Of a stretch of 35,921 nt of DNA, positions 1,055-20,349 are shown piece by piece (position 1 is the stretch's first letter; every line of letters begins with the position of its first letter). The translations under genes were made by a program, and so were the position numbers. Location of the stretch: positions 1 through 35,921 of IMG/VR virus record IMGVR_UViG_3300037858_000060, one strand, 5' to 3'. Origin of the DNA: a virus. Below the pieces are notes generated by a model that saw only the letters and a program-made list of their open reading frames with translations, ran no database searches and was not told the origin of the DNA.

Positions 1055-1257
1055 AACATTTAGCGCAGCTGTACGGGATTGATCTGGCGCTGGCTGCCTT
1101 CATTCTTTCGTTTGAAGATGATGCACACAACAGCGATATCATCGAGATCGGCCCCGATGGGCAAGAGCGGCCCGCCCCGCCGGGGATCGGGCTGTTTGAT
1201 GACGATCCGCCCGCCGGGCCGCGCCTGGTCGTGCCAGTGAATAGGGGGATACAATGA
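1036..1257 (+). CDS. Small acidic hypothetical protein
   Basis: This is a 73-residue acidic protein I do not recognise. The start at 1036 is supported by a GGAG at 1024-1027, 8 nt upstream. The start lies inside the 3' end of the peptidase-like gene, and the stop overlaps the ATG of the following giant gene by 4 nt (ATGA), so the three are translationally coupled. It has a short helical N-terminus and a Pro/Gly/Asp-rich tail, with no membrane segment or cysteine cluster. It may be a small partner of the neighbouring virion proteins, but nothing in the sequence shows a function. Confidence 0.65.
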   Translation: METPTVEHLAQLYGIDLALAAFILSFEDDAHNSDIIEIGPDGQERPAPPGIGLFDDDPPAGPRLVVPVNRGIQ

Positions 1258-4200
1258 GCGCAACACGCGAGATCATCAGCAAGGCCCGCAAAGGTGAGCG
1301 GGTGAGCGGCGCGAAGTATTTGCGCCGGGAGTGGGATGCACAGCATGCCCGCTGGAACTATGTCTATCCGGAGGTGCACGCCGCTCGCCCGCCGCGCACG
1401 AAAAAGAAAGAGCCGCCGAAGGTTGAGCCAGATCGGCACGGCTACATCAGCACGGCTGACACCGCCAAACTGATCCGGCATGAACTGGGGGAAACGTTCT
1501 GGGATATTCGGTTCAGCGTCCGAAAGACCCATGGCAATGCGATTGATGTCAAGTGGATGGATGGCCCGGCTGAAGAGACGGTCAGATCCCTAACTAGTCA
1601 TTACCGAGGAAGCGACTGGGATTCCATGCAGGATCTATCAGTCCCGCGCCGTAGCACCTACAATGGTCGCAGCGTACGTTTCAGCGCTGACCATGTTTTC
1701 ACAAAGCGCGATTACTCGCCCGCATTCCTGACTGCCGTGGCTGCCAGGGTTGCCGCGCAATTCGGCGTCGATCCTCCGACGATCAAAACACACGAGGATG
1801 GCAGCGCGTACATTGCGAGCGATGAGAAGAATATCCAGATAGGCGGCCATGGGCCATTGCTGTCAGAGCGCGTCATGCGGGAAGCTCACCAGACCAATGC
1901 GTCTGATATATTGGGCAAACCTCGCCGTGAAGCGCGCCCGACACCGCCGCCTGAACCCGCTGCCCCCAAAGAGCCCGCGGCCCCGGTTGATCCGTCTGCC
2001 GTGCCCTCATACGAGGTCAAGCACGATCGGGACTGGACATGGCTTGCATTCGACGCAGAGCCGAACAGCGCCATAGGCGAGGCATTGAAAACACTGGGGT
2101 TTCGTCATTCAACCAAGCGCAGCGGCAAATGGGGCAAGCACGCATGGTACAGCAAGCAACACGTAGATGATCAGCACATCCACGACGCCCTGAGCGGCGC
2201 CACAGCCCCCGCGCCGCCTACCCCGGCAGGCGTCCCGGATACAGGCACGGATCGACCACAGGAGCCCACACAGCAAGCCAGCGCCAGCCCCGCGGGCAAG
2301 TTGCGCAGCATGGCGGATACGATGCAGAAACAGATCGACGCGAAACGCAATCCGGCGATCGGAGAGCAGCGCGCAACCGCCCGCCGCGCGCGCATTGCGG
2401 AAGGCATGGGGAGGGATGCCGATCGGCTACAGCGCTTCCAGGGGATGCTGAGCAACCTGGCCGACGCGCACGACAACAACCCGGACGCGCTCCCCAGGCC
2501 GCTGCAAAAACTGAACAATAAGGCCGGGCTTGAATATCTGTTCAATGAGGCGCTCAGGCAGGAATACGACGAAGAGCAGCTCGATCGGTATGGGTCTGAA
2601 AAATACAAAACCACCGGCCCGAGCATGCCGCCGCCGGGGTTTCAAGACACCGCCCGCAAGGCACTGCTACGCGCCGGGGTGAATAATCAGAACATCGTGT
2701 ATGCAGTCCATGCATTGCGCGAACTGATGGGGAAACAGGCCGAAGCCACTCCCGAGCAGCAGGTCAAAGCGAAAGAGCGCGAATTGATCGGCATGAAGAT
2801 CGCCGGATACTTCCCGACGCCCGATCCCCTCGCGCGGCGCCTGGTCTCCGAGGCCGATATAGAGCCCGGTATGAGCGTGCTAGAACCGAGCGCGGGCAAA
2901 GGCAGCATTGCCGACGTGATCCGACAGGAGCACCCCGAAACCGCGCTCGATGTGGTTGAGTTCAACTCGCGCCTGGGGGAGATCCTTCAACTCAAGGGAC
3001 ACAACCTTGTCGAGATTGATGCACTGCAACACAAGGGCAAATACGATCGCATCGTGATGAACCCGCCCTTTGAAAAAGGTGCCGATATCGATCACGTCAA
3101 GCACGCATTCAGCAACCTGAAGTCCGGCGGGCGCGTCGTTGCGATCATGAGTGAGGGCCCCTTCTTTCGCAACGATCGCAAATCGGAGGATTTTCGCGCC
3201 TGGCTGGATGAGATGGGGGGCTATAGCGAACAACTCCCCGCGGGGAGCTTCCAGAGCAGCGACAGCCCCACCGGCGTGAATACGCGCATGGTTATCATCG
3301 ACAAGCCGGGCAAGTCCGAATCAGCGCCAGCGCAGCACCCCGGAAGTGCGGTGCATACGCATTCGGCAGGCGCACCCCACGGGCAGCAGCCCGCGCCACA
3401 CGGGACAGAAAAACCCCTGTTGCGTCGCTTCCACCAGAAGGTACATAAAACCCTGGATATACTGAAGGACAGAGACCTTCCGGAAGCAATCTGGCAAACA
3501 ATGGGCGTCTCATCTAGCACGTATGAGCGGGAAGGATATACAGCAGGAATAGAAGCACTGTCTCTTTTGTTTGCGGGACGGTCGGCCCTTACGTCAACGG
3601 ATGAGGCGATCAGCGAAATAAGCGATAAACTAGAAGAGATCGATGCGCAAATCAAAGAAGGCGGGCTTGCCAATTATGCTTTGCGGCACATCCAGGGTCA
3701 GCGTATGGCTTTCACTAATGCCCATCGAGCGTTTGCTACCGGGAACCTGGACCGTATCGGGGTACCAGACGATCCTCCCACCGCGCAGCAGCACCCCGGC
3801 CCGGCAGGCGACGCCCGCCACCCGGCAGACGACGTACACGAGGCTGCGACGGGCGCCAGCTCGCAGACAACCAGGAAGCCACAGCCAAAGCTGCACGTGC
3901 GGATGGGGAAGGTACCCACGGCGCCGCAACTGTCGAAACGGATAGATGAGGCATTGCGGCACTTCTATGTCAATCGGCACGAGCGCGACTTGAGCGCCCT
4001 CGGACTCCCGAACCATCCCGACGTGCGCGACGGGTACAGTCGAGCGCTGAATAAGGTACAAAGCGCGCTCGCCGCCAATGAAGACGGCAAAAGGCCATCC
4101 GCGAAAGAGGTGCATGCGTTCCTCGAAAAGGAGATCGCCGCGACTGACAAGGCACTGGCAAAAGAAACAGGTGAGCACGTGCGCCCGTACCTGACAGGCT

Positions 4201-6947
4201 TCAAGCTCGGGTTTGAGAAGGTACTCGAAACGCTTCAAACGGGCGATCTTGATGCGCTCTACAACCCGGTTGAGGCGCCTACGCCCATACCAGAGCCGCC
4301 CGCGCCGCGCAAGCCCGAGCGGCCCGTGTTTGGCACCGGCGCGCCCGAACCATCACGCCGCCGCACCAAAAAACCAGCCCCCGAACCAGAAGCCGATCAG
4401 TTGATGATGTTTTCGCGCGCGCGGCGCCTGCTCCACCGCTCGCGGGCGCGCCAGCACGAGGAGGGTGATATGCACAGCAACAGCCGCACGCGGGAGCTAC
4501 TGAACAAAGCCCGCGGCACGGGCGCCCGCAAACCAGGATCGCGCTACATCAGCCGGGAGTGGGATCATACTAACCAGCGGTGGAAGTATGAGTATAACAC
4601 CAAGAAGCCGCCACAGCAGCGCGGCGCGCATACGCAAGATGATATGCATCAGCAGCGAATGGAGTCCCATCCGGCGCAGCAGCCGCCGGGCCGGGAAGCC
4701 TACCAAGACCCGCATGAGCCGAAGGTAATCCACAGCACTGAACACAAGGAGTATGGAGAAGCCCCCAACGGCGATATCATGAGCCGTACAAAAGGCGGCG
4801 TGTGGCGTTTCGAGAGCACGAAGGCGGCATGGAAGCACAGCCCTGACAATCCGGAGTCACCGCGGTATGAGAAACCAAAAGAACAGACCGCGCCAGAACA
4901 ACAGCCCGCACCGAAGCGCCACACTAAACCCGTCGAGAGTCGCACGCAGCGAACACTGTCCCCCCAGGAACAACAAATCGAAGCAGACGCGATTGCGGCG
5001 TTTGTGAACCAGGCTGCCAGCGCAACACCAGAGCAGCGCCAGCAAGTTATCGCCCGGATGCAGCACTATGCCACAGCCGAGAGCGAGTGGGGCGAACGGC
5101 TGGTATACCAAGGCCACAAGATGAGTGTGGCGGGCGTGCAAGAGGCAATCCGGCAGATTGAAGCGATTGACGCCAAGCGCGAATTGGCTGGGCAACAGCC
5201 GCCGCAGTCCGACGCGCCCTACACCCGCGTGCAGACTGCCGGGCCGGAAGGCGACGCGCCCAAAGGGGCGCCGATCCCGCCGCGTCAGCCCGATCACGGC
5301 ACCCAGCGCGCCATGATCGACTCCTCCGAGATGGAGTCCGATCACCTCCAGCAAGAGCAGGCGAAGATCGACGCACTTAGTACGCCTGAACAGGCGATCA
5401 AGCACCTGAACAAGATCGATGCCGACATACGGCGCGCGCAAAAGAAGCGCAACGATCCGAGCGCGGCGTATACTCTCAGCAACCTGGAACAACTCAAGTT
5501 GCACGCGGAAAAGAAGCTGCGCCAGCTCCGCGGGGAGCGCGCCGCCGCGGGCCGGGAGAAGGCCGCCGCCAGCCGGGAGAAGGCACAACAAGATATCGCA
5601 GGACTGGAAGACCTCCCGCCAGATACGCCAAAGCGAGAGGTGCGGGCCGCTGTGGAGCGGGAGCACGACGAAACGAAGGCTGCTATTGAGCAGGCGCGCG
5701 CCGATGGCTTGCTCAATGACCGGGAGTATGATCGTGCAACGACGCTACTGTTTCGGGACGTGAGCCCGCACAAGCACCACAAGTCGAGTGTGGCGAATAT
5801 GCGGAACGCGGTAAGTGTGGCGCGCGATATCCGCAAACAGATCGAAGATCGCCGCGCCGAACAGCAGCAGCAAGAGGCGCCCGCCTTACCCTCGCTGGGC
5901 AAGCACCCGATCCGCTACCAGCCCGCGCGCGATCCGGCGAATATCCGCATAGAAATGCAACTAGGCAACACAGAAGTGACGTTCGCACCGGAGGATCATG
6001 GGTCGATCCATGTCGCGTTTAGCGGCGGGCGCATGTCGAAACAACTCCTGGATAATATCGCCGCTGAATTCGGCGGCACTGTGGACTATAAGAACAAGCG
6101 CAGGCTCGGCGATAACACGATGCTGTATATCAACTTTGAAGACAAGGCCCCCCACCTGGGGATGCTGGCCCGACACTTGCAGCAGGCACAGGAGTCGCAG
6201 CAGAAGAAAGTCAATCCCGCCGCCGCCAGCGCCGAACGAAAGCAGGTCATGGAGCAGGTTGATCAGCGACGCCAGGCAGCCGTGCACAAACTGACTGAGG
6301 CCGCCGCCGCGGAGTTGATCACCGAAGAGGAGCGACAGGAGCACCTGAGCCGCTTCAAGCGCGTCATCCCCATGCGCCAGGCCGATCACCTGGTGAGGGA
6401 TATGGGCACAGAGATCCGGCAGTGGCAGCAGGCGCGGGTGCAGGTCGCGCAGATTGATCAGGACATTGATCGCGTGCTCGCAGAGAAGCGCAGCCAGCAA
6501 AAGCCCAAAGCCACGCGCCCTGAGTTCGGGCAACCCGTGCCGCGCAAGGGGGCGGGCAAGCGCAAGCCCACAGAACCACAGAGCCCCGGCAACGCAGAAC
6601 AGCAGATGATGTTCAGCCGCCGCCGCTCCCGCACGGCGGAGCTGCTTCGCAAGGCGCGCGGCGATCACCCGATCGGCTCCCGCGGGCACTGGCACGAACA
6701 CATGGACGACTACCGCGCGGCCAAGAAGCGCGGCGATCACGAGGGCAGCCGAAAAGACTACCTCGATCACGTGACCGGCGGCTGGGATCAGGAGCAAGAG
6801 AGCGAGAGCGAGCGGCGCAAAGACCTGAAGGAACTGCGCCACCTGGAAGCGGAAGCGCGTACCCTTCGAGAGGGGCCGCAATTACGGAAAGTCCAGCACA
6901 AGATCGCCCGCCTACAAAAGCGCTTGAAGATCACCCCTGCGGCCTGA
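1254..6947 (+). CDS. Giant polyvalent protein with LPD29-like and N6-adenine methyltransferase domains
   Basis: This is a 1897-residue modular protein; an AGGGGG precedes the ATG. Visible parts in order: an N-terminal module with REIISKARKG and RYLRREWD-like motifs (2-38); a domain resembling Large Polyvalent protein-associated Domain 29, with FSVR and IDVKWMDGP (about 62-195); a small WLAFDAEP domain (about 259-315); and a class I SAM-dependent methyltransferase with motif I EPSAGKG (544-550) and catalytic NPPF (603-606), the signature of amino-methyltransferases acting on adenine. Helical linkers follow. A second copy of the N-terminal module starts at 1073 and a third, partial one near 1785. 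Junctions 1 and 2 both carry an MMFSR motif. Phage P1 DarB also joins a methyltransferase to a helicase in an ejected antirestriction protein; here the helicase lies in the next giant gene. The role in protecting incoming DNA is inferred. Confidence 0.8.
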   Translation: MSATREIISKARKGERVSGAKYLRREWDAQHARWNYVYPEVHAARPPRTKKKEPPKVEPDRHGYISTADTAKLIRHELGETFWDIRFSVRKTHGNAIDVKWMDGPAEETVRSLTSHYRGSDWDSMQDLSVPRRSTYNGRSVRFSADHVFTKRDYSPAFLTAVAARVAAQFGVDPPTIKTHEDGSAYIASDEKNIQIGGHGPLLSERVMREAHQTNASDILGKPRREARPTPPPEPAAPKEPAAPVDPSAVPSYEVKHDRDWTWLAFDAEPNSAIGEALKTLGFRHSTKRSGKWGKHAWYSKQHVDDQHIHDALSGATAPAPPTPAGVPDTGTDRPQEPTQQASASPAGKLRSMADTMQKQIDAKRNPAIGEQRATARRARIAEGMGRDADRLQRFQGMLSNLADAHDNNPDALPRPLQKLNNKAGLEYLFNEALRQEYDEEQLDRYGSEKYKTTGPSMPPPGFQDTARKALLRAGVNNQNIVYAVHALRELMGKQAEATPEQQVKAKERELIGMKIAGYFPTPDPLARRLVSEADIEPGMSVLEPSAGKGSIADVIRQEHPETALDVVEFNSRLGEILQLKGHNLVEIDALQHKGKYDRIVMNPPFEKGADIDHVKHAFSNLKSGGRVVAIMSEGPFFRNDRKSEDFRAWLDEMGGYSEQLPAGSFQSSDSPTGVNTRMVIIDKPGKSESAPAQHPGSAVHTHSAGAPHGQQPAPHGTEKPLLRRFHQKVHKTLDILKDRDLPEAIWQTMGVSSSTYEREGYTAGIEALSLLFAGRSALTSTDEAISEISDKLEEIDAQIKEGGLANYALRHIQGQRMAFTNAHRAFATGNLDRIGVPDDPPTAQQHPGPAGDARHPADDVHEAATGASSQTTRKPQPKLHVRMGKVPTAPQLSKRIDEALRHFYVNRHERDLSALGLPNHPDVRDGYSRALNKVQSALAANEDGKRPSAKEVHAFLEKEIAATDKALAKETGEHVRPYLTGFKLGFEKVLETLQTGDLDALYNPVEAPTPIPEPPAPRKPERPVFGTGAPEPSRRRTKKPAPEPEADQLMMFSRARRLLHRSRARQHEEGDMHSNSRTRELLNKARGTGARKPGSRYISREWDHTNQRWKYEYNTKKPPQQRGAHTQDDMHQQRMESHPAQQPPGREAYQDPHEPKVIHSTEHKEYGEAPNGDIMSRTKGGVWRFESTKAAWKHSPDNPESPRYEKPKEQTAPEQQPAPKRHTKPVESRTQRTLSPQEQQIEADAIAAFVNQAASATPEQRQQVIARMQHYATAESEWGERLVYQGHKMSVAGVQEAIRQIEAIDAKRELAGQQPPQSDAPYTRVQTAGPEGDAPKGAPIPPRQPDHGTQRAMIDSSEMESDHLQQEQAKIDALSTPEQAIKHLNKIDADIRRAQKKRNDPSAAYTLSNLEQLKLHAEKKLRQLRGERAAAGREKAAASREKAQQDIAGLEDLPPDTPKREVRAAVEREHDETKAAIEQARADGLLNDREYDRATTLLFRDVSPHKHHKSSVANMRNAVSVARDIRKQIEDRRAEQQQQEAPALPSLGKHPIRYQPARDPANIRIEMQLGNTEVTFAPEDHGSIHVAFSGGRMSKQLLDNIAAEFGGTVDYKNKRRLGDNTMLYINFEDKAPHLGMLARHLQQAQESQQKKVNPAAASAERKQVMEQVDQRRQAAVHKLTEAAAAELITEEERQEHLSRFKRVIPMRQADHLVRDMGTEIRQWQQARVQVAQIDQDIDRVLAEKRSQQKPKATRPEFGQPVPRKGAGKRKPTEPQSPGNAEQQMMFSRRRSRTAELLRKARGDHPIGSRGHWHEHMDDYRAAKKRGDHEGSRKDYLDHVTGGWDQEQESESERRKDLKELRHLEAEARTLREGPQLRKVQHKIARLQKRLKITPAA
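4458..4472 (+). promoter_or_regulatory. Internal ribosome-binding site and in-frame ATG inside the giant gene
   Basis: GAGGAGGGTGAT leads directly into an ATG at 4470 that is in frame with the surrounding gene (residue 1073). The Shine-Dalgarno match is stronger than that of the annotated start at 1254. Translation from here would give an 825-residue protein beginning MHSNSRTRELLNKARG, a repeat of the full-length protein's own N-terminal motif. The site therefore probably produces a separate C-terminal isoform, or marks where two once-separate genes fused. Confidence 0.5.
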
Positions 6948-6958
6948 TGTGCTATAAT
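6946..6958 (+). promoter_or_regulatory. Possible extended -10 promoter after the giant gene
   Basis: A perfect TATAAT at 6953-6958 is preceded by TGC, giving an extended -10. No good -35 is present at 17 nt; a TTGAAG lies too far away at 6924-6929. A terminator starts about 17 nt downstream, so only a very short RNA, or read-through into the exported-protein gene, would result. A near copy (11 of 13 bases) follows the last gene of this block at 16962. Confidence 0.35.
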
Positions 6959-6974
6959 GACCATAACGGGAGTG

Positions 6975-7001
6975 CCCCGGCCTATTCAGGTCGGGGTTTT
7001 T
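6975..7001 (+). terminator. Rho-independent terminator
   Basis: A 9-bp stem (CCCCGGCCT pairing with AGGTCGGGG, one G-U pair) closes a four-base ATTC loop and runs straight into five T residues at 6997-7001. It sits 28 nt after the stop of the methyltransferase-bearing giant gene. It separates that gene from the exported protein and nuclease genes, so those need read-through or their own promoter. Confidence 0.85.
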
Positions 7002-7048
7002 GCGTGTTCTGAACGGCCTATGTATTCACTCAGTGAGAGGAGTATGGT

Positions 7049-7576
7049 ATGCGGTCTATTTCGATCCCGATGCATTTTGCAGGTGCCGCGCTGCTGGCCC
7101 TGGCTATTCTGGCGGCTCTCGCCCTGATGACAGTACAGAGCCCTCCGCCCGCCGATGCCCAGATCAACACCACGCGCGGGACGGAGTTGGTTATGTTTCG
7201 CCCTGGCAGTGCCATCGAGGCCACCGACACGATCTACACCCCGCTGACGGCGGGAGGCGTGCAAATCGCAAATGTGCAGGGCTACAGCAGCGCAGACGTG
7301 TTCGTCTCTACCACCGTCGCCAGCGGTACCGCGCAGGTCGTGATCACGCCTCAGGTGAGCCCCAACGGCAGCGATTGGTACGATCTCATTCATCCGTTTG
7401 TGAACAGCTCCAACGCTGCCGCGACGGTCGAACTCAATACCCTGACGATCAACACTGTCGGCGGCGCATACACCAGCTTCGATCTGGACGGGCGCTACCT
7501 GCGATTTGAGATCGTCCCGACCAATGTGGACGCCAGCAATCACATTGATCCTGAGATCCTTGTGACGCTGCGCTAG
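7049..7576 (+). CDS. Exported or membrane-anchored hypothetical protein
   Basis: This is a 175-residue protein. AGAGGAG at 7036-7042 fixes the start at 7049 rather than the out-of-frame ATG at 7044. Residues about 8-30 form a strongly hydrophobic Ala/Leu segment ending near a PPPADAQ stretch, which looks like a signal peptide with a possible cleavage site or a single N-terminal anchor. The rest is rich in Thr, Val and Ser, with alternating polar and apolar residues suggesting a beta-sandwich. A secreted beta-rich protein is odd between two cytoplasmic or virion giants and may be a cargo gene, for instance a surface-altering protein. I recognise no family. Its TAG overlaps the GTG of the next gene. 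Confidence 0.7.
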   Translation: MRSISIPMHFAGAALLALAILAALALMTVQSPPPADAQINTTRGTELVMFRPGSAIEATDTIYTPLTAGGVQIANVQGYSSADVFVSTTVASGTAQVVITPQVSPNGSDWYDLIHPFVNSSNAAATVELNTLTINTVGGAYTSFDLDGRYLRFEIVPTNVDASNHIDPEILVTLR

Positions 7577-7926
7577 TGGATCGGATGCGCCGCGCGCTGC
7601 TGCGCTATCGCCTTGACGATGACCGCCCGAACCCTGAAACGAGCCTGGAACGCCTGATCCGTCAGGCACTCGATCAGGCGGGCTATACCTACACCGATCA
7701 GGGCCGCATCGGTCGCTATCGGCCTGATTTTATCGTCACACTGCCCGATGGGGCGCGCGTCGTGATCGAATGCGACGGGCCGCACCATCAGCAGCCAGCG
7801 CAGCAGCGCAAAGACCACCGGAAGGATGCCGCCTACAAAGCCGCCGGGTATCGGGTGTTTCGATTTACGCAGCAGGAGATCAAGCACTCCCCTGTTGCCT
7901 GCATACAACGTATATGGCACGATTAG
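7576..7926 (+). CDS. DUF559-family endonuclease-like protein (PD-(D/E)XK/Vsr fold)
   Basis: This is a 116-residue protein starting at GTG 7576, which shares one base with the upstream TAG. The core matches DUF559 nucleases: an RYRPDF segment, then VVIECDG (the E-x-D of the active site), a following HH, and a C-terminal KAAGYRVFRF strand before a closing helix. DUF559 proteins have the very-short-patch-repair endonuclease fold and often occur as free-standing or fused DNA nucleases. At this length it is a complete single domain. It may nick host or competitor DNA, act in DNA processing, or be a mobile free-standing nuclease. Its stop lies inside the start of the helicase gene. Confidence 0.8.
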   Translation: MDRMRRALLRYRLDDDRPNPETSLERLIRQALDQAGYTYTDQGRIGRYRPDFIVTLPDGARVVIECDGPHHQQPAQQRKDHRKDAAYKAAGYRVFRFTQQEIKHSPVACIQRIWHD

Positions 7927-10900
7927 TTCCTCCACAGCCGCATGTTTCATCTCGCACGCGCGCTCTGATCGAGCGCCGCCGCTACGTGACGCGCCGCCTG
8001 ATGTGCTCCATGCACAAAGGCAACCAGACCCTCTGGGGGGAGCTGACCCTCCACATCCCCGCGCGCCCGTGGGGCGATCACATGAGCAAGCGCGCGCCCG
8101 ATCCGGGCACGCGATGGATCACAGTGCACCCCAACGGCGAAAACACCACCGGCGTGCCGATTATGATCCGCGAGAGCAAGGAGTCGCCCGGATCGTATTA
8201 CGTGGTCGGCGGCGCCGGGGGCAAGATGAACCATATGAAGCTCACCGGCGTGAAGAGTAAAGAGCAGCACGAGAAAGAGCAAAAAGAGCGCCAGCGCGAA
8301 AAGCGGCAGAAGAAGAAAGAAGAAGAGCAGGAGCTTGCGAAAGAGGGTAAGCTCGATAAAAAGAAGGCCATGGATGAAGCGGTCGAGCGCGCTAGCGCCG
8401 AAAAGGACACCGATCGCATCAAGGCCAAGATGCAAGACATTCTCCCCCTGATGGGCATGAACCCGGCAGAATATGCCTTCAACCCCGATCCAGAGACAGT
8501 CAAGGGGATCAAGCCCGACAGCGCTGCCTATGCGATGCTCGAGTATCAGTACTATCGCAAACTCGAAACCCAGATGGATCGCAATCTGGATGAGATGGTA
8601 CGCCAGCAGCTCATGAAAGACCGCGAGCGCCTCGAAAACGAGGGGATCTCGTTTGCGCTCCAAAAGGAGGGCCGCGGGATCGACCTGGCCGCCGCGTTTG
8701 AAGGGCAGAAGCAGGCAGAAGCCGAGCTTGGCGACATCGATCACGAGATTGAAAACGCCCGCACGCGCGGCGATGAAGACGCGGTTGATCGCCTGGAGAA
8801 GCGCCGCGAGGAGGCGCAAGAGGAGCACGATCAGCATAGCCAGACGATCGATGAAGCTGGTAGCACGCTCTCAATCGACGAGGCGAGCGGCTACAAACCG
8901 AACCAGGGCAAGGGCTACGACGCGACGACCAAAAACCGCGCGATCCAGTCCATGATCGAGAGTGGCGAGCTGGATCATGAGGCGCTGCGCCAGCAGGCCG
9001 AAAACGACAACGACGGCGAGCAGGCGCTTTCCGATGTGGCGAATATCGTTGCGAGTGGTGGCGCGATTGAGCAGGTAGACGACGATGGGCAGCCGATCAT
9101 GAGCCCGGATGATCTGTGTGCCGCCGATATGGAAGCGCGCCGCAACCTGCTCGCTAAAGCTGCTGAACACGCCGAAGCGGGCGACTATGACAAGGCTTTC
9201 GGGCATTGGAAGCGCGCCGAAGCGCTTGTCGAAAAGTGGCGCCGCCGCGCCGATAAGGCACACGCGAAAGACCACGATGACTCCAAGATGACCGGCAGTG
9301 AGTACCTCGGGCTGGTCGCCAAGGCGGTGCACGACGGGCGCAACAATGCCAAAAAGATGAGCCAGGCCAGCAAGCGAGGCGCCACCCAGATCCCTGAGGA
9401 GCTGCAACAGGCCAAGGTCGAATATGACCAGATGAAACAGGCGCTCGCGGCAAAGAAGAAATACGACGCCATGAAGGCGAATATGCAGCGCAAAAAGGAG
9501 CAAGCCAAAGAAGAAGGGGCCGCCGCAGGCTACGCGATCGATACCGACGCGATCAATGATAAATTTGACGTGGACGCCCTCTCCTCAGATCAGGCACTCG
9601 TGAGCGCAGAAGAGGCGCTCCGCATTCAGCAGCAAGCCGATATCAATAGCGCGCTCCTGAAAAAGGTAGAGGAAAGTCCTGAGCTCATGAGCCAGCTCGA
9701 TATCTCACGCACGCAGTTGCAGCGCGCCATGGCGCAACACGTGAGCGCGGGCGCCTTTGCGGGCTTCGGGAATGCGACCATGCTGGGCGCGGGTGATATC
9801 CTCGCCGATCGGGCGCTGATCGATACATTCGGGGTGAAGGGGGCCGCGTCGATCCTGGCCACGCACCTGCGAGACAACCTTGACGATGACCGCTATAACG
9901 CGCTCGTGGAAGGCATAGAAGCCTACCACGGCGAAGAGGGCACCCGCCGCGCATCGGATGCCGTTGCGCGCGCGAAGGAAGCCTATGCGGAGGCGCGCGA
10001 TATCGCGTTCGGCGATATCGAGGATCCGAGCGATCCCGTGTCCATGCAATACCTCAACGACAAGCGCCGGGCGCTGCTCGAGCACACCATGCACGACCTG
10101 GGCCGCACGATCGGCGAATTGCGCTCGCATGCAGAGCTCCTCAACGCCCTGAAAAAGACCAAAAAAGGCGACAAAGACGATCCTTTGCGCCGCCTGACGA
10201 TGCCCATGGGTGATGCGGACGAGGATAGCATCATCCAGAATTGCGCCGCGCTGGGGCTGGAACGCGACGATTACCAGATCTCGCAGGATGTCGCGGGCAA
10301 GGTCGTGTTTATCCAGGGGGACGCGATCAGCAAGCTGGCCCGCTCTGACCTGACGCAGGAGGAGATCGACGCCTCTGCTCACGGGCAGGCGATCAAAACC
10401 GGCGGCCATGATGAGTCGGGCTGGCTCCCGGCAGGCATTGCGCGCCGCGTGCAATCGACTATGGACGGGCCTACGCCCGAACCGCCTGTGTTCGGCGTGC
10501 AGCCTGAAAAAGAGCACTTCGCGGGCCTGCGCGGCGATGACCTGCACGAATATGTCTCCGATTACATCGGCAGCCACGTCGCAGACGGGCGCCCCGTTAT
10601 GCAGGTTGTGGCCGATCTGCAATCGGCTGCCTTCCATAGTGATTACTTAGAGCCTGCCAGCGCTGGCGGCGTGGATATGTTCGGAGATGAGATCCCCGGC
10701 AGCAATCAGGCAGAAGAGATCGATCAGGCGATCAAGAAGCTGCTGCCCCAGTTCGACCATTCCAAAGACTGGACACCCGACACCTTGCGCGCCTTCGAGC
10801 AAGAGCGGGAAGAGGCTGCACAGCAGCTCGCGGAGCAATACCGCACAAAGCAGGGCCTCAGTGCCGACACGCTACACACGCAAGGCGTCGCCATGGATCG

Positions 10901-13742
10901 CATCGCCGAAACCGATATGTTCGGCGAAAGCAGCACGCCTATGGGCAATCACACTGTCGAGGCAGTACACCGTGCGCTGGCAAAGAACCCCGCCGCGGTG
11001 CTGGCCTTCAAGTCCCCCATGGAGCTGAACCCGAAGGAGAAGAACGCCCTCCGCGACTACTGGTGGAAACATCTCTCACCCGAAGGGAAAGAAGCCTCAT
11101 CAGAAGCGAAGAAGCGCCAGCAAGCCGAAAAAGACAAAAAGAAGGACACTGATGACGATCTCACTGCGTCGATGTTCGGCGATGCCTTCGGGGATAGTGG
11201 CGACGTGTCGAGTTACGATCTGGGCACTGATGACCCGCGCCTGCACCAGGAATATGGGCCGGATGACACGATCGAGATCGATGTATGGGGCACGAAACAG
11301 AAGGTGAACGCGCGCGAATGGCAAGAGGCCGAACTCGAAAAGCGCCGCCAGAACCATGGCGATATGTTCGGCAACGACACCGGCGAAGATGGCGCGATGG
11401 GCGCCGGGGATGATGAGGCGAAAGCGCGCCACGCCTGGGATCGTTATCTGCAAGCGCACGGCTCTAATCAGGATCTCGCCTATCGATCGCTGCAAGAGCA
11501 CATGCAAGGCGATTTTGCGCAAGAGTTCGCGGGGCATTACAACCGCCTGACTGGCGAGCCGCTGAAGCTCGGCAAAACCGCGCTCTCTATGAGCGACGCG
11601 CACCAGGTGGGCCTGGCGCCGTCTCACCAGTTTGAAGAGCGCCTGAACGAAATGCGCAACCCCATGGCGCGCGAAATGGCAGAAGTCGGGCGCGGCGCCT
11701 CGGGCAAGTTCGTGGCAGGCGCGCGCGGGGAGGCCGCCGCGCAATCGTTGCGCGTCAAAGGCGAGGAACAGCGCGCGCTCTTTCAGGAGAAAGAGGCCGA
11801 GCGCAGCAACAAGAGCATGCGCGCTACGCTGGGACATCGGGCCGAACGCCAGATCGCAGGCATTGTCAACGAGGTAGGCCATGCCTGGAACCCGAAGGCC
11901 GATCCTGTGTCGCTCTTTCCCGTCTCCATGGGGGATGATAGCGAAAAGGGCAAGCGCTTCTACAAACAGCAGCGCGCCGTCAAGTTGATCGAGCATCAAA
12001 AGAAAGTGGGGCTCTGGTTCGGGGCTGGCTCTGGGAAGTCGCTGACCACGCTGGCCGCCTTCACGCATCTCGAAGACCAGGGCCAGGTCAAGCGCGGCAT
12101 TTATGCCGTTCCTAGCGTCGTACAAAAGCAGTTCGGGGGAGAAGCACAGCGCTTCCTGGATCCGACCAAACAGCGCGCCGATGGGCGCACGGGCTACAAA
12201 TGGCACGCGGAAGCGGGTGCGAGCCGCGAAGAGCGCCATGCAGCCTATCGGGATCAAAATACCGACTTTGTTGTCGTTACGCACCAGGGGATCCGTGATG
12301 ATGCAATCCACGCCCTGAGCGAGCACCAGGGGATAGATCACGGGGATACCGTTGACTGGTTCAATGGCCTGAGCCGGAGCGACCGCGCGGAAGCGATCAA
12401 GGGTGCGTTCGATCATATGGGCTGGCATAACCTGGATTACCTCTATGTGGACGAAGCCCACTACACGAGCAACCGGATCGGCAAAGAGAACAGCACCATG
12501 GCCAACGTCATGGATGCGATCGGCGATAATGTCAGCCATCAGGTTCTCGGATCGGGAACTCCCGTCAAAAACGACGCATCGGAAGCCTATGACTACCTCT
12601 CCAAGCTCGACCCGGATCGATTCTCCGATCGCGGCGAATTCATGCGCCGCTACGGCAGCAATACCCAGTCTCACCGGGAGGCGTTGCAGCGCCTTACGAG
12701 CCGCTACTTCTACCAGGATCGCGTGGAAAGCGGCGTGGAAGGCCACGTCAAAAAGAACGAGATCAAGCTCTCGGGGCACCAGCGTACGCAATACGACGCG
12801 GCACAGCAGGCATTCAACGCGATCAAAATGGAGCGGCAAGCCGCCAAAAAAGAAGGCCGCCCGATCGATAGCGGGATCCTGACAGAGCACATGCGGACGC
12901 TCTCGCCCAACTCATTCGCCGATCTGGATGAGGGAGACCACGAGGACAAAGCGCGCTCGCTGCTGCCTGCCATCGGGACGATCAAGGAGGCGGCCTTTAA
13001 TCGGATCATCAACGGCGGCAAGTTTGAGACCAACGCCAAAATGCAGCACATCTCGCAGATGGCCGATCAGTATCGTAACGCCACAAACCCCCGCACGGGC
13101 AAGAAAGGCGTGCCGGGCGTCGTGTTTGCGCGCAACCTGGAGACGATCGACGAGCTCAAGCGCGGCCTGGAGGCGCAAGGGCACCGCGTTGCGACACTCA
13201 CCGGCACCATGACCGGCGATGAGAAGGACGCCGCCCGCCGCGCCTTTGCGCCGGATAGTAAGCGGGATGAGGATGCGACGGCGGATATTATGATCCTGTC
13301 TGACGCGGGTAATACCGGCCTCAATTTACAACGCGGCGGCTGGCTGGTGCACGTTGACACGCCGATGACCAGCCCCGTAAAAGAGCAACGCGACGCGCGC
13401 ATCAACCGCATCGGGCAGCAAGCCGATGTCGATCTGCACGAGTTGATCACAGACACGCCCTTCGACGGCGCCGCCCAGCGCCGCCTGGCGCGCAAGGCGC
13501 ACACGTCGCACGTCTTTCAGGATCCCAGCCACACCGTTGACGATACGGGCCTCGCTGCGCACGTCAACGCGGCGTATAAGCGCGCCACAGGCCAGAAGAT
13601 GCGTGGGCAAGCCGTAGGCGAAGACAACCGACAGCAGCGCCGCGCGGCAGTAGAGACCGCGCAACGGCTGCGCGATGAACGCAAGGCAGAGCAGGAGGAG
13701 CGCCAGCGTGCCAAGAAGCAAGAAGCAGAAGCAGAAGCGTAA
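7914..13742 (+). CDS. Giant polyvalent protein with C-terminal SNF2/DEAH helicase
   Basis: The frame is open from upstream. I place the start at ATG 7914, overlapping the nuclease stop by 13 nt, because GC-rich third positions already mark this frame from about 7950. ATG 8082, after GGGG, is the main alternative. The protein has about 1942 residues. Near the N-terminus lie TRWITVHPNGE and a VVGGAGGKM motif, familiar from phage polyvalent proteins. A very long charged helical region follows, with several MFG motifs (for example DMFGDE, DMFGES, DMFGND). Counting from 7914, the helicase has Walker A GAGSGKS (1370-1376), DEAH (1513-1516) and motif VI QRDARINRIGQ (about 1826-1836), an SNF2 pattern. 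Phage P1 DarB carries a comparable helicase together with a methyltransferase. An ejected DNA-translocating antirestriction role is inferred. Confidence 0.8.
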   Translation: MARLVPPQPHVSSRTRALIERRRYVTRRLMCSMHKGNQTLWGELTLHIPARPWGDHMSKRAPDPGTRWITVHPNGENTTGVPIMIRESKESPGSYYVVGGAGGKMNHMKLTGVKSKEQHEKEQKERQREKRQKKKEEEQELAKEGKLDKKKAMDEAVERASAEKDTDRIKAKMQDILPLMGMNPAEYAFNPDPETVKGIKPDSAAYAMLEYQYYRKLETQMDRNLDEMVRQQLMKDRERLENEGISFALQKEGRGIDLAAAFEGQKQAEAELGDIDHEIENARTRGDEDAVDRLEKRREEAQEEHDQHSQTIDEAGSTLSIDEASGYKPNQGKGYDATTKNRAIQSMIESGELDHEALRQQAENDNDGEQALSDVANIVASGGAIEQVDDDGQPIMSPDDLCAADMEARRNLLAKAAEHAEAGDYDKAFGHWKRAEALVEKWRRRADKAHAKDHDDSKMTGSEYLGLVAKAVHDGRNNAKKMSQASKRGATQIPEELQQAKVEYDQMKQALAAKKKYDAMKANMQRKKEQAKEEGAAAGYAIDTDAINDKFDVDALSSDQALVSAEEALRIQQQADINSALLKKVEESPELMSQLDISRTQLQRAMAQHVSAGAFAGFGNATMLGAGDILADRALIDTFGVKGAASILATHLRDNLDDDRYNALVEGIEAYHGEEGTRRASDAVARAKEAYAEARDIAFGDIEDPSDPVSMQYLNDKRRALLEHTMHDLGRTIGELRSHAELLNALKKTKKGDKDDPLRRLTMPMGDADEDSIIQNCAALGLERDDYQISQDVAGKVVFIQGDAISKLARSDLTQEEIDASAHGQAIKTGGHDESGWLPAGIARRVQSTMDGPTPEPPVFGVQPEKEHFAGLRGDDLHEYVSDYIGSHVADGRPVMQVVADLQSAAFHSDYLEPASAGGVDMFGDEIPGSNQAEEIDQAIKKLLPQFDHSKDWTPDTLRAFEQEREEAAQQLAEQYRTKQGLSADTLHTQGVAMDRIAETDMFGESSTPMGNHTVEAVHRALAKNPAAVLAFKSPMELNPKEKNALRDYWWKHLSPEGKEASSEAKKRQQAEKDKKKDTDDDLTASMFGDAFGDSGDVSSYDLGTDDPRLHQEYGPDDTIEIDVWGTKQKVNAREWQEAELEKRRQNHGDMFGNDTGEDGAMGAGDDEAKARHAWDRYLQAHGSNQDLAYRSLQEHMQGDFAQEFAGHYNRLTGEPLKLGKTALSMSDAHQVGLAPSHQFEERLNEMRNPMAREMAEVGRGASGKFVAGARGEAAAQSLRVKGEEQRALFQEKEAERSNKSMRATLGHRAERQIAGIVNEVGHAWNPKADPVSLFPVSMGDDSEKGKRFYKQQRAVKLIEHQKKVGLWFGAGSGKSLTTLAAFTHLEDQGQVKRGIYAVPSVVQKQFGGEAQRFLDPTKQRADGRTGYKWHAEAGASREERHAAYRDQNTDFVVVTHQGIRDDAIHALSEHQGIDHGDTVDWFNGLSRSDRAEAIKGAFDHMGWHNLDYLYVDEAHYTSNRIGKENSTMANVMDAIGDNVSHQVLGSGTPVKNDASEAYDYLSKLDPDRFSDRGEFMRRYGSNTQSHREALQRLTSRYFYQDRVESGVEGHVKKNEIKLSGHQRTQYDAAQQAFNAIKMERQAAKKEGRPIDSGILTEHMRTLSPNSFADLDEGDHEDKARSLLPAIGTIKEAAFNRIINGGKFETNAKMQHISQMADQYRNATNPRTGKKGVPGVVFARNLETIDELKRGLEAQGHRVATLTGTMTGDEKDAARRAFAPDSKRDEDATADIMILSDAGNTGLNLQRGGWLVHVDTPMTSPVKEQRDARINRIGQQADVDLHELITDTPFDGAAQRRLARKAHTSHVFQDPSHTVDDTGLAAHVNAAYKRATGQKMRGQAVGEDNRQQRRAAVETAQRLRDERKAEQEERQRAKKQEAEAEA

Positions 13743-19011: not shown

Positions 19012-19351
19012 TCCTGGCATCGTGCTCGACTATGAACCGAGTACCGATTGTTGGATAGCCAGCGCGCCGTACTATATGATAGGCAAGCACGCCGATGCGA
19101 GCGCCCTGGAGGGGGAAATCCGCGCGGCCTATTACAACCCTGATCCGTATTTTGTGGCTAACATTGTGAAGCGCGGCATCGAAGAGCTCAGGATCAAATG
19201 GGGATCTACAGTGGGCGATCTGCCGTTCCTGTTCATCGCGGGTGAGGGGCAAGAAGGATACCAGGTACCAGACAACTGGCTCGCAGAGTTTCAAGCCATC
19301 GCGGCCCGGTGGGGCTGGGAGACGTACGAACGTGAGGAAGCGGCATGTTAG
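18995..19351 (+). CDS. Hypothetical early protein
   Basis: GGAAGGAG precedes ATG 18995; the first in-frame ATG at 18956 lies inside the upstream gene and lacks a site. The 118-residue product has a short N-terminal beta region (IVLDYEPSTDCWIAS), then helices, ending in ARWGWETYEREEAAC. It overlaps the previous gene by 17 nt and the PP-loop gene by 7 nt, so it may be made together with that enzyme. The family is unknown. Confidence 0.6.
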   Translation: MATFVSPGIVLDYEPSTDCWIASAPYYMIGKHADASALEGEIRAAYYNPDPYFVANIVKRGIEELRIKWGSTVGDLPFLFIAGEGQEGYQVPDNWLAEFQAIAARWGWETYEREEAAC

Positions 19352-20349
19352 AAAGAGATGCAACGGGAGCAGTACAGCCCCCAGCGCCTCGCCTTGATCA
19401 ATTCAATCTGTTCCATGTGGGCATGTCAGGCGGTAAGGACTCCGCCGCGCTCGCGCTTTGGTCTTGGTATGAGAGTGGAATTCCACGCGATCAGATTCGC
19501 GTGGTGTTTTGCGACACCGGGAACGAAGACGCCCTGACCTATGCCTTTCTCGATTATCTGCGCGAATTATTTCCGATCGAAACGCTCAATCCAGAGTATG
19601 ATTTTTACGAGTTGGCCAACAAAAAAAAGCGGTTTCCGTCGCCCAAGGCGCAGTTTTGTACGCAATTCCTGAAAATCATCCCCAACCGGGAGCATATCAT
19701 GCGCCTGATGCGAGAAGGACATGAGGTGTGCAAACTGAACGGCGTGCGCCGCGAAGAAGGGCATAGCAGCAATACACGCAGCACCGCAGAGGCATGGGAG
19801 TTCGATGCGGGCCCGTACTGCTGGACACACCGTCCGCTGCTACACTGGACAATTGATGATATCTGGGAGATGCATCGGCGGTATCTCTCACTCGATCGGG
19901 TGTGTGATTTGATCGCCGACGATCCGACAATGCAGCCGGAGCGAAAACAGCAACTTATTGAGCGGATGCGCCAGAAGGGCGTGCCGCGCAACCCGCTGTA
20001 TGAAATGGGGGCCTCGCGCGTGGGGTGTTTCCCATGCATTAACTCTCGCAAAGCGGAACTGCGATCGCTAGCAAAGTTCCGCCCTGAGCGGGTCGATTAT
20101 CTTGAACAAAAAGAGCAAGAGATCCGCAATCGGCATGGGCGATCAACGTTCTTTGCGCGCACGCACGTGCCTGAGCACCTGCGAAGTCTGGAGGTATCAA
20201 CCGCCAGCGGTGAGACGGTCAAGGTGCCGACGATCCGCGATGTGATCGAGTGGGCACAGACGGCGCGGGGTGGGTGGCAGTTTGACATGGACTTCGATGA
20301 TGACGATTTGCCTGTAAGTGCCTGTGACGTAGGCGGTTTTTGCGAATAA
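19345..20349 (+). CDS. PAPS-reductase / DndC-like PP-loop ATP pyrophosphatase
   Basis: This is a 334-residue PP-loop enzyme. Residues 28-33 are SGGKDS, the ATP-pyrophosphatase loop. FCDTGNE (55-61) matches the adenine-binding strand. C105 in FCTQFLK, RREE (135-138) and GASRVGCFPC with C228 and C231 follow the PAPS reductase/DndC pattern, with enough cysteines for an iron-sulfur cluster (a further C near the C-terminus). CysH reduces PAPS to sulfite, while DndC activates sulfur for DNA phosphorothioation. Phage versions of this family often stand alone. No dndB, D or E partner or other sulfur gene is visible here. A nucleotide- or DNA-modifying role is possible but unproven. Confidence 0.85.
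   Translation: MLERDATGAVQPPAPRLDQFNLFHVGMSGGKDSAALALWSWYESGIPRDQIRVVFCDTGNEDALTYAFLDYLRELFPIETLNPEYDFYELANKKKRFPSPKAQFCTQFLKIIPNREHIMRLMREGHEVCKLNGVRREEGHSSNTRSTAEAWEFDAGPYCWTHRPLLHWTIDDIWEMHRRYLSLDRVCDLIADDPTMQPERKQQLIERMRQKGVPRNPLYEMGASRVGCFPCINSRKAELRSLAKFRPERVDYLEQKEQEIRNRHGRSTFFARTHVPEHLRSLEVSTASGETVKVPTIRDVIEWAQTARGGWQFDMDFDDDDLPVSACDVGGFCE

Follow-up and report, generated by a model that had tools for sequence, protein, structure and literature searches.

Does a phage locus in which an adenine methyltransferase (MTase) and an SNF2-type helicase are encoded by two neighboring giant genes represent a split version of DarB, the phage P1 protein that carries both activities in one polypeptide and is located in the P1 head (PMC9024508)? 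The question is raised by IMG/VR virus record IMGVR_UViG_3300037858_000060, a linear record of 35,921 bases analyzed here over its full length (the window), which is a fragment of a larger genome and whose minus strand carries genes for the baseplate, hub, and lysin of a phage with a contractile tail (myophage). An original prediction had interpreted the two giants, P0001 (MTase) and P0002 (helicase), as a DarB-like system divided between two genes, with a nuclease inside the unit. Our analyses instead favor, with reasonable though not high confidence, a pair of separate head-packaged, ejected myophage proteins in which the solo translocase P0002 would be the constant component and the MTase its exchangeable partner, the intervening genes being no part of the machine.

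Two giant proteins with intact catalytic motifs

P0001 (positions 1254 to 6947; this and the other features up to position 13742 described here lie on the plus strand) is a polyvalent protein of 1897 residues, encoded in the late region and composed of unrelated domains: an LPD29 domain (1446 to 1718; residues 65 to 155, PF18847, E = 6e-17) and a module formed by a helical domain and an adenine MTase (2271 to 3368). The MTase domain, at about residues 473 to 697, matches Pfam MTS (2.6e-5) and phrog_15406 "DNA methyltransferase" (2.6e-87) and contains the S-adenosylmethionine motif LEPSAGKG (2880 to 2903) and the NPPF motif (3060 to 3071). The module was modeled by AlphaFold with a predicted local distance difference test score (pLDDT) of 90.9, and its top solved matches in Foldseek were type I M subunits (StySJI, Vibrio vulnificus, and PacII; 3e-10 to 1e-9), with TaqI ranking lower; the full-length root mean square deviation from the M subunits is high, so that the comparison supports the class and not the domain arrangement. 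TaqI also matches the P0001 MTase by profile (E = 1.5e-5). With its NPP(F/Y) motif and a Rossmann-like fold bearing an N-terminal helical domain, the P0001 enzyme is, by sequence and model, a gamma-class N6-adenine MTase of the HsdM/TaqI type.

P0002 occupies an open reading frame (ORF) at 7770 to 13742 that would encode 1990 residues from its first ATG. The originally predicted size of about 1942 residues corresponds to a start at 7914, which, like that at 7770, overlaps the preceding nuclease gene; the best start is at 8082 (1886 residues), because the homologues begin shortly ahead of the WITVHP block. This conserved N-terminal block (WITVHPNG ... GGAGGK, 8115 to 8225) is followed by a helical middle region of about 460 residues (9729 to 11111), which is conserved in alignments across the solo SNF2 giants and for which the model (pLDDT 78) found no solved fold (best Foldseek E = 0.28), and by an SNF2/Rad54-type ATPase domain (11979 to 13586; Pfam SNF2-rel_dom, 4e-9, and Helicase_C, 1e-6). 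The Walker A (GAGSGKS, 12021 to 12041), DEAH (12450 to 12461), and motif VI (QRDARINRIGQ, 13386 to 13418) sequences are all intact, and RapA is the best PDB sequence match of the ATPase domain (3e-14). These data confirm the adjacency of two giants with an NPPF adenine MTase and an SNF2-type DEAH helicase, as well as the originally reported size of the first of them.

Single-sequence scans with either giant returned no relatives and alignment-based searches were needed to find them. At least 559 P0001-type MTase relatives were then detected in IMG/VR, and segments of podophage giant proteins show about 50% identity to the P0001 MTase domain (233 records). A profile scan of IMG/VR detected at least 163 P0002 relatives, 80 of which were retained, plus 22 loci in genomes, 4 of which match near the N terminus only. 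In tblastn searches of phage records (14 records), relatives were identified in isolated myophages, i.e., Bordetella phage PHB04, Morganella phage Mecenats66, and Thermus phages, with about 30% identity extending over the N-terminal block, helical middle, and ATPase domain. P0002 is thus a full-length member of phrog_62 ("DNA helicase"; PHROG category DNA metabolism). The N-terminal block was considered as a general tag and rejected, since outside full helicases it was seen only at three loci (L106, L107, and L109), of which two look like fragments of helicase N termini.

The helicase family is separate from DarB

In a quick tree of ATPase domains, all 26 domains from solo helicases, i.e., SNF2 giants that are not fused to an MTase, and all 35 DarB-type domains fell on opposite sides of a single branch with 100% support, P0002 lying outside the DarB clade. 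Similarity between the SNF2 domains of P0002 and DarB is local and weak (E = 1e-4 to 1e-3), and the conserved N-terminal and middle regions of P0002 gave no alignment to DarB. The P0001 MTase module, for its part, is only distantly related to the P1 DarB MTase, within the same broad class (blastp E = 0.03 to 0.2; E = 7e-7 with a P0001-type hidden Markov model [HMM]).

The solo family also coexists with intact DarB. In PHB04, a DarB-type dyad (2097 residues) is followed by a Ulx-like gene of 108 residues, the solo helicase, four small genes, and the capsid gene, the 108-residue family matching P1 Ulx (hmmsearch, 1.8e-9). In Thermus phage Lalka27a, annotated DarB-like and Ulx-like genes lie at 0.03 to 6.6 kb and the solo helicase far off at 35 to 40 kb. 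Solo-helicase loci were reduced at 90% identity to 77 nonredundant loci, with flanks as fetched: these contained a DarB-type gene in 34 cases, usually followed by a Ulx gene, a P0001-type MTase in 6, Ulx only in 4, and none of these in 24, while 9 had too little upstream sequence. Among whole phage or virus records of at least 50 kb, DarB was found in about 22 of 36 and neither MTase type in about 12. Coexistence with DarB and a separate side of the tree therefore define P0002 as a distinct protein frequently found together with DarB. By these sequence comparisons, it is a member of a widespread family of its own and not a broken-off half of P1 DarB.

The layout of the window likewise departs from that of a DarB locus. 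The MTase and helicase are on two ORFs with a hairpin and two genes between them, close homology to the DarB MTase is lacking, and no match to Ulx was found in six frames of the window. A split DarB by descent, as originally proposed, is accordingly rejected by the tree, the coexistence, and the domain makeup.

Recurrence of the MTase-helicase pair

The order MTase giant followed by solo helicase is not peculiar to the window. A P0001-type MTase giant lies directly 5′ of a solo helicase at at least four other loci, L009, L093, L175, and L201, with gaps of 23, −4, 222, and 292 bp, respectively, and the same pair is probably present in L101 (gap of 1118 bp) and L102, where partial MTase genes are found at the contig starts. 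No DarB-type helicase-bearing protein was found within reach in these MTase-giant/solo-helicase loci; the chance of such an absence of overlap between DarB-type and P0001-type genes is about 0.03 (6 giants, 79 loci), a weak figure drawn from related sequences and chosen loci. A search for the four-gene order of the window in other phages, proposed with the original prediction, thus recovered the MTase-to-helicase order at these four or more loci, with no homologue of the exported protein in them and no nuclease at that position. Viewed from the MTase side, a P0002-type helicase was present in the fetched flanks of 2 of the 80 P0001-type MTase loci that were fetched (L175 and L201), in both directly downstream.

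The giants from L009 and L093 share their N terminus with the PHB04 dyad (blastp; for L009, 164 residues align at 52% identity), and that of L175 resembles the DarB-type N terminus by eye. These shared N termini are the best evidence that a P0001-type MTase can take the place of DarB, suggesting that it occupies the DarB slot as a substitute payload and that the MTase partner of the solo helicase is exchangeable.

Several observations weigh against this interpretation. The N terminus of P0001 itself differs from the DarB-type one of L009, L093, and L175, so that P0001 is assigned to the slot by its gene order and MTase module alone. A DarB-type gene could also be located beyond the ends of the window, which covers only part of the genome. 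Neither MTase type is within reach at 24 of the 77 solo-helicase loci, so that the helicase must at least sometimes function without a linked MTase. Finally, the literature searched contained no virion proteomics for the solo helicase family.

The genes between the giants

Two small genes separate the giants, as originally noted: P0003 (7049 to 7576), a protein of 175 residues predicted to be exported from its hydrophobic N terminus, and P0004 (7576 to 7926), a DUF559/MTES_1575 nuclease of 116 residues (Pfam, 2.3e-13) in which the PDF (7723 to 7731) and ECDGPHH (7768 to 7788) motifs are both intact. The P0003 stop and P0004 start overlap by one base, and both genes lie downstream of an intrinsic-terminator-like hairpin (6974 to 6997; 10 pairs, 7 of them G-C, and a T tail) that follows the MTase gene and has by far the longest stem of any plus-strand site in the scan.

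The prediction that the nuclease belongs to the unit did not hold up, since the gene was conserved in none of the relatives. No P0003 homologue was found in the helicase or MTase loci, nor any nuclease at that position in them; searches of viral contigs returned one weak relative of P0003 and none of P0004, and phage records also yielded none of P0004. DUF559 matches occur in 9 of 35 records, none at the position of P0004 as far as mapped. A conserved role of the nuclease in the system was rejected on these grounds. P0003 and P0004 are probably a nonconserved mobile insert and not part of the machine.

DUF559-type ORFs were encountered in a different setting. Two DarB-type genes contain inteins directly after Walker B (L030, 5211 to 5771; L034, 4821 to 5825), recognizable by DEGH or DEAH, then CFPAGT ... 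VHN, then C/S-F/Y-KNLY. Within each, the intein frame is open and a DUF559-type endonuclease ORF is nested in another frame (L030, 5455 to 5763; L034, 5101 to 5817). The DarB-type gene of L202 (record G019) also spans a DUF559-type ORF, the third such case; a search with the intein pattern gave no match there. Out-of-frame homing endonucleases are known from a phage methylase insertion, of the HNH type and not in an intein (PMC11855218). The presence of DUF559 ORFs inside DarB-gene inteins fits a homing-type or moron origin of P0003 and P0004 better than a role in the machine.

Probable virion packaging and a candidate targeting motif

The original prediction regarded both giants as virion cargo. 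Packaging is likely for P0001, as Pseudomonas phage H66 encodes a protein of 3787 residues with the same MTase (52% identity) that is described in its record, in an annotation incomplete as displayed, as "verified by mass spectrometry as part ..." of the virion. For P0002, packaging is plausible from its context. Most of its homologues in PHB04, Mecenats66, and Thermus phages adjoin portal/minor-head genes or sit just 5′ of the protease and capsid genes; P0002 likewise lies in a head gene cluster, although the protease and capsid genes of its relatives are not adjacent in the window.

P1 DarB depends on an N-terminal signal, and its initial 30 residues are enough to direct a reporter protein to the capsid; the same work reported that no signal shared by the P1 Dar proteins was detected by BLAST (PMC9024508). 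We scored the first 30 residues for a pair of hydrophobic residues followed, directly or after one intervening residue, by K and then A/S/G/T. Of the 45 solo helicases, 33 carried this motif, as did 25 of the 29 dyads, compared to a single one of 84 neck or Ulx proteins and 103 of 1113 remaining ORFs with 250 or more residues, counts that are inflated by related sequences. A stricter form, in which the hydrophobic pair is followed by a third residue that is hydrophobic or T and then by KA or KS, was found by eye in 4 of the 23 complete genes of the PHB04 region, a single annotated region, namely, those for a RelA-like protein, a pyrophosphatase, the dyad, and the solo helicase. It also occurs in 9 of 22 short pyrophosphatase ORFs, several with uncertain starts. 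P1 DarB does not fit the stricter form.

A similar sequence, E[IL][IL]xKAR[GK], is found three times in P0001, as EIISKARK (1269 to 1292), ELLNKARG (4494 to 4517), and ELLRKARG (6639 to 6662), with no clear copy in P0002 of the window. The second and third copies are preceded by QLMMFSR (4398 to 4418) and QQMMFSR (6600 to 6620), an arrangement reminiscent of a fusion of three cargo proteins; speculatively, these repeats could mark cleavage or clamp-binding sites. As a separate observation, a polyvalent protein at L056 (3354 to 9551) with LPD3, ADP-ribosyltransferase, pyrophosphatase, DUF6582, RelA/SpoT-like, and LPD1 domains adjoins a solo helicase and a Ulx-like gene.

Proposed mechanism and alternative explanations

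Under the interpretation that we favor, P0001 and P0002 would be packaged in the head and ejected with the DNA. The HsdM/TaqI-type module of P0001 would methylate adenine bases in the phage DNA as it enters the cell and so protect it, its activity, specificity, and timing being presumed. P0002 would move along the double-stranded DNA during entry and dislodge or block host restriction complexes, or other proteins, and might cooperate with the MTase by giving it access to the DNA. Such translocation is the role most readily expected of an SNF2 enzyme that arrives with DNA, although P0002 may instead act in a RapA-like fashion or in DNA entry. The slot immediately 5′ of the solo translocase holds a DarB-type dyad and Ulx in many relatives and a P0001-type giant in the window and at least four other loci. 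P0003 and the DUF559 protein P0004 would most likely be an inserted moron or homing-type endonuclease unit. A bolder version, put forward tentatively and in our view somewhat doubtful, is that the solo SNF2 giant is an undescribed, widely conserved Dar-like ejected component served by a modular MTase slot, in which DarB-type dyads and HsdM-like polyvalent MTases would substitute for one another behind one and the same N terminus, the N-terminal motif being the capsid-targeting signal on unrelated cargo (SNF2, dyad, pyrophosphatase, and RelA-like proteins).

It is quite possible, if short of an even chance, that an unrelated MTase and SNF2 giant have been joined into a two-subunit antirestriction complex on ejected DNA, a functional though not an evolutionary equivalent of DarB that has taken its place: their adjacency recurs across short gaps in diverse loci devoid of DarB, and three of the replacement MTases carry DarB-type N termini. 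However, each protein often occurs without the other, the loci concerned also lack Ulx, and the statistical argument comes from small numbers of related sequences in selected loci. That the giants are a single MTase-helicase cut in two and still one enzyme is extremely improbable. The two activities do stand side by side in the order of DarB, the MTases fall in one broad gamma class, and the SNF2 domains are weakly alike, but the helicases form separate clades, the solo family is found beside complete DarB in the same genomes, P0002 has N-terminal and middle regions of its own, and the MTase module occurs without this helicase at 78 of 80 loci.

An alternative function for P0002, in DNA handling in the head or in early replication or transcription (such as RapA-like clearing of RNA polymerase) and not in antirestriction, seems unlikely to us, yet has points in its favor, i.e., the RapA match, the PHROG category, and the many phages without either recognized MTase type. 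Against it, the head-gene location and an N-terminal motif common to unrelated cargo point to packaging and not to early synthesis, an argument that is itself compatible with an ejected RapA-like role. We regard it as very unlikely that the DUF559 nuclease is part of an injected machine, for example, one that degrades host DNA while the MTase marks that of the phage. Its position between the giants and its intact catalytic motifs would suit such a function, but no relative encodes it at this site, the hairpin sets it apart from the MTase gene, it is coupled to an exported protein, and related endonuclease ORFs in DarB-gene inteins indicate a homing-type context.

Neighboring genes

Upstream of P0001 is a zincin protein (74 to 1054) with an HEIGH motif (647 to 661) that matches phrog_4529 "minor head protein and DNA pilot" over residues 174 to 321 (E = 5e-13); its frame is open to the window start and the protein may be longer. 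Neck-like and structural genes follow P0002 (PHROG/Pfam), in agreement with the HEXXH protein and neck genes originally noted at this locus. Genes like P0006, P0007, and P0008 (13742 to 16957) sit 3′ of the protease, scaffold, and capsid genes in relatives, and in the window P0006 comes directly after the helicase gene; no capsid or protease gene was recognized in this fragment. The late genes also include a PAPS-reductase-like gene (19345 to 20349; PF01507, 1e-17; phrog_424, 3e-41).

Relationship to known systems

The pair in the window is a variation on the known polyvalent/Dar theme, an arrangement that is real and recurrent and whose descent had been misread. DarB-type MTase-helicase dyads and polyvalent proteins were described by Iyer et al. 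2017 (PMC5512222). Like DarB, the window encodes an adenine MTase and an SNF2-type ATPase from a phage head region, for which methylation of ejected DNA is proposed; unlike DarB, it does so in two genes, with both catalytic domains from other families, and an LPD36-MTase-helicase fusion was not recognized in it. P0001 shares its predicted fold and NPPF motif with HsdM and M.TaqI and differs from them in being embedded in a giant polyvalent protein, with no specificity subunit recognized in the window. The giants of phage H66 and Vibrio phage vB_ValP_FGH (2634 residues) contain the same helical and MTase module (46 to 52% identity to P0001) together with other accessory domains (LPD23, LPD3, LPD38, and zincins); a P0002-type helicase was not detected in either phage, neither being among the 14 P0002-match records. 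P0002 is homologous end to end to the phrog_62 giants of PHB04, Mecenats66, and the Thermus Lalka, Cumys, and phiMa phages, but it is divergent, with an overall identity of about 30% that rises to at most 43% in the ATPase domain, and longer in the variable parts.

These comparisons separate two things that can be lumped together under a "DarB-like" or helicase label, the fused dyad and the solo SNF2 giant found beside it in many phages. They also suggest an exchangeable MTase partner and point to a short motif, shared by unrelated cargo proteins, as a candidate targeting signal, ideas that are testable in the isolated phages PHB04, Mecenats66, and Lalka, all of which carry the solo SNF2 family.

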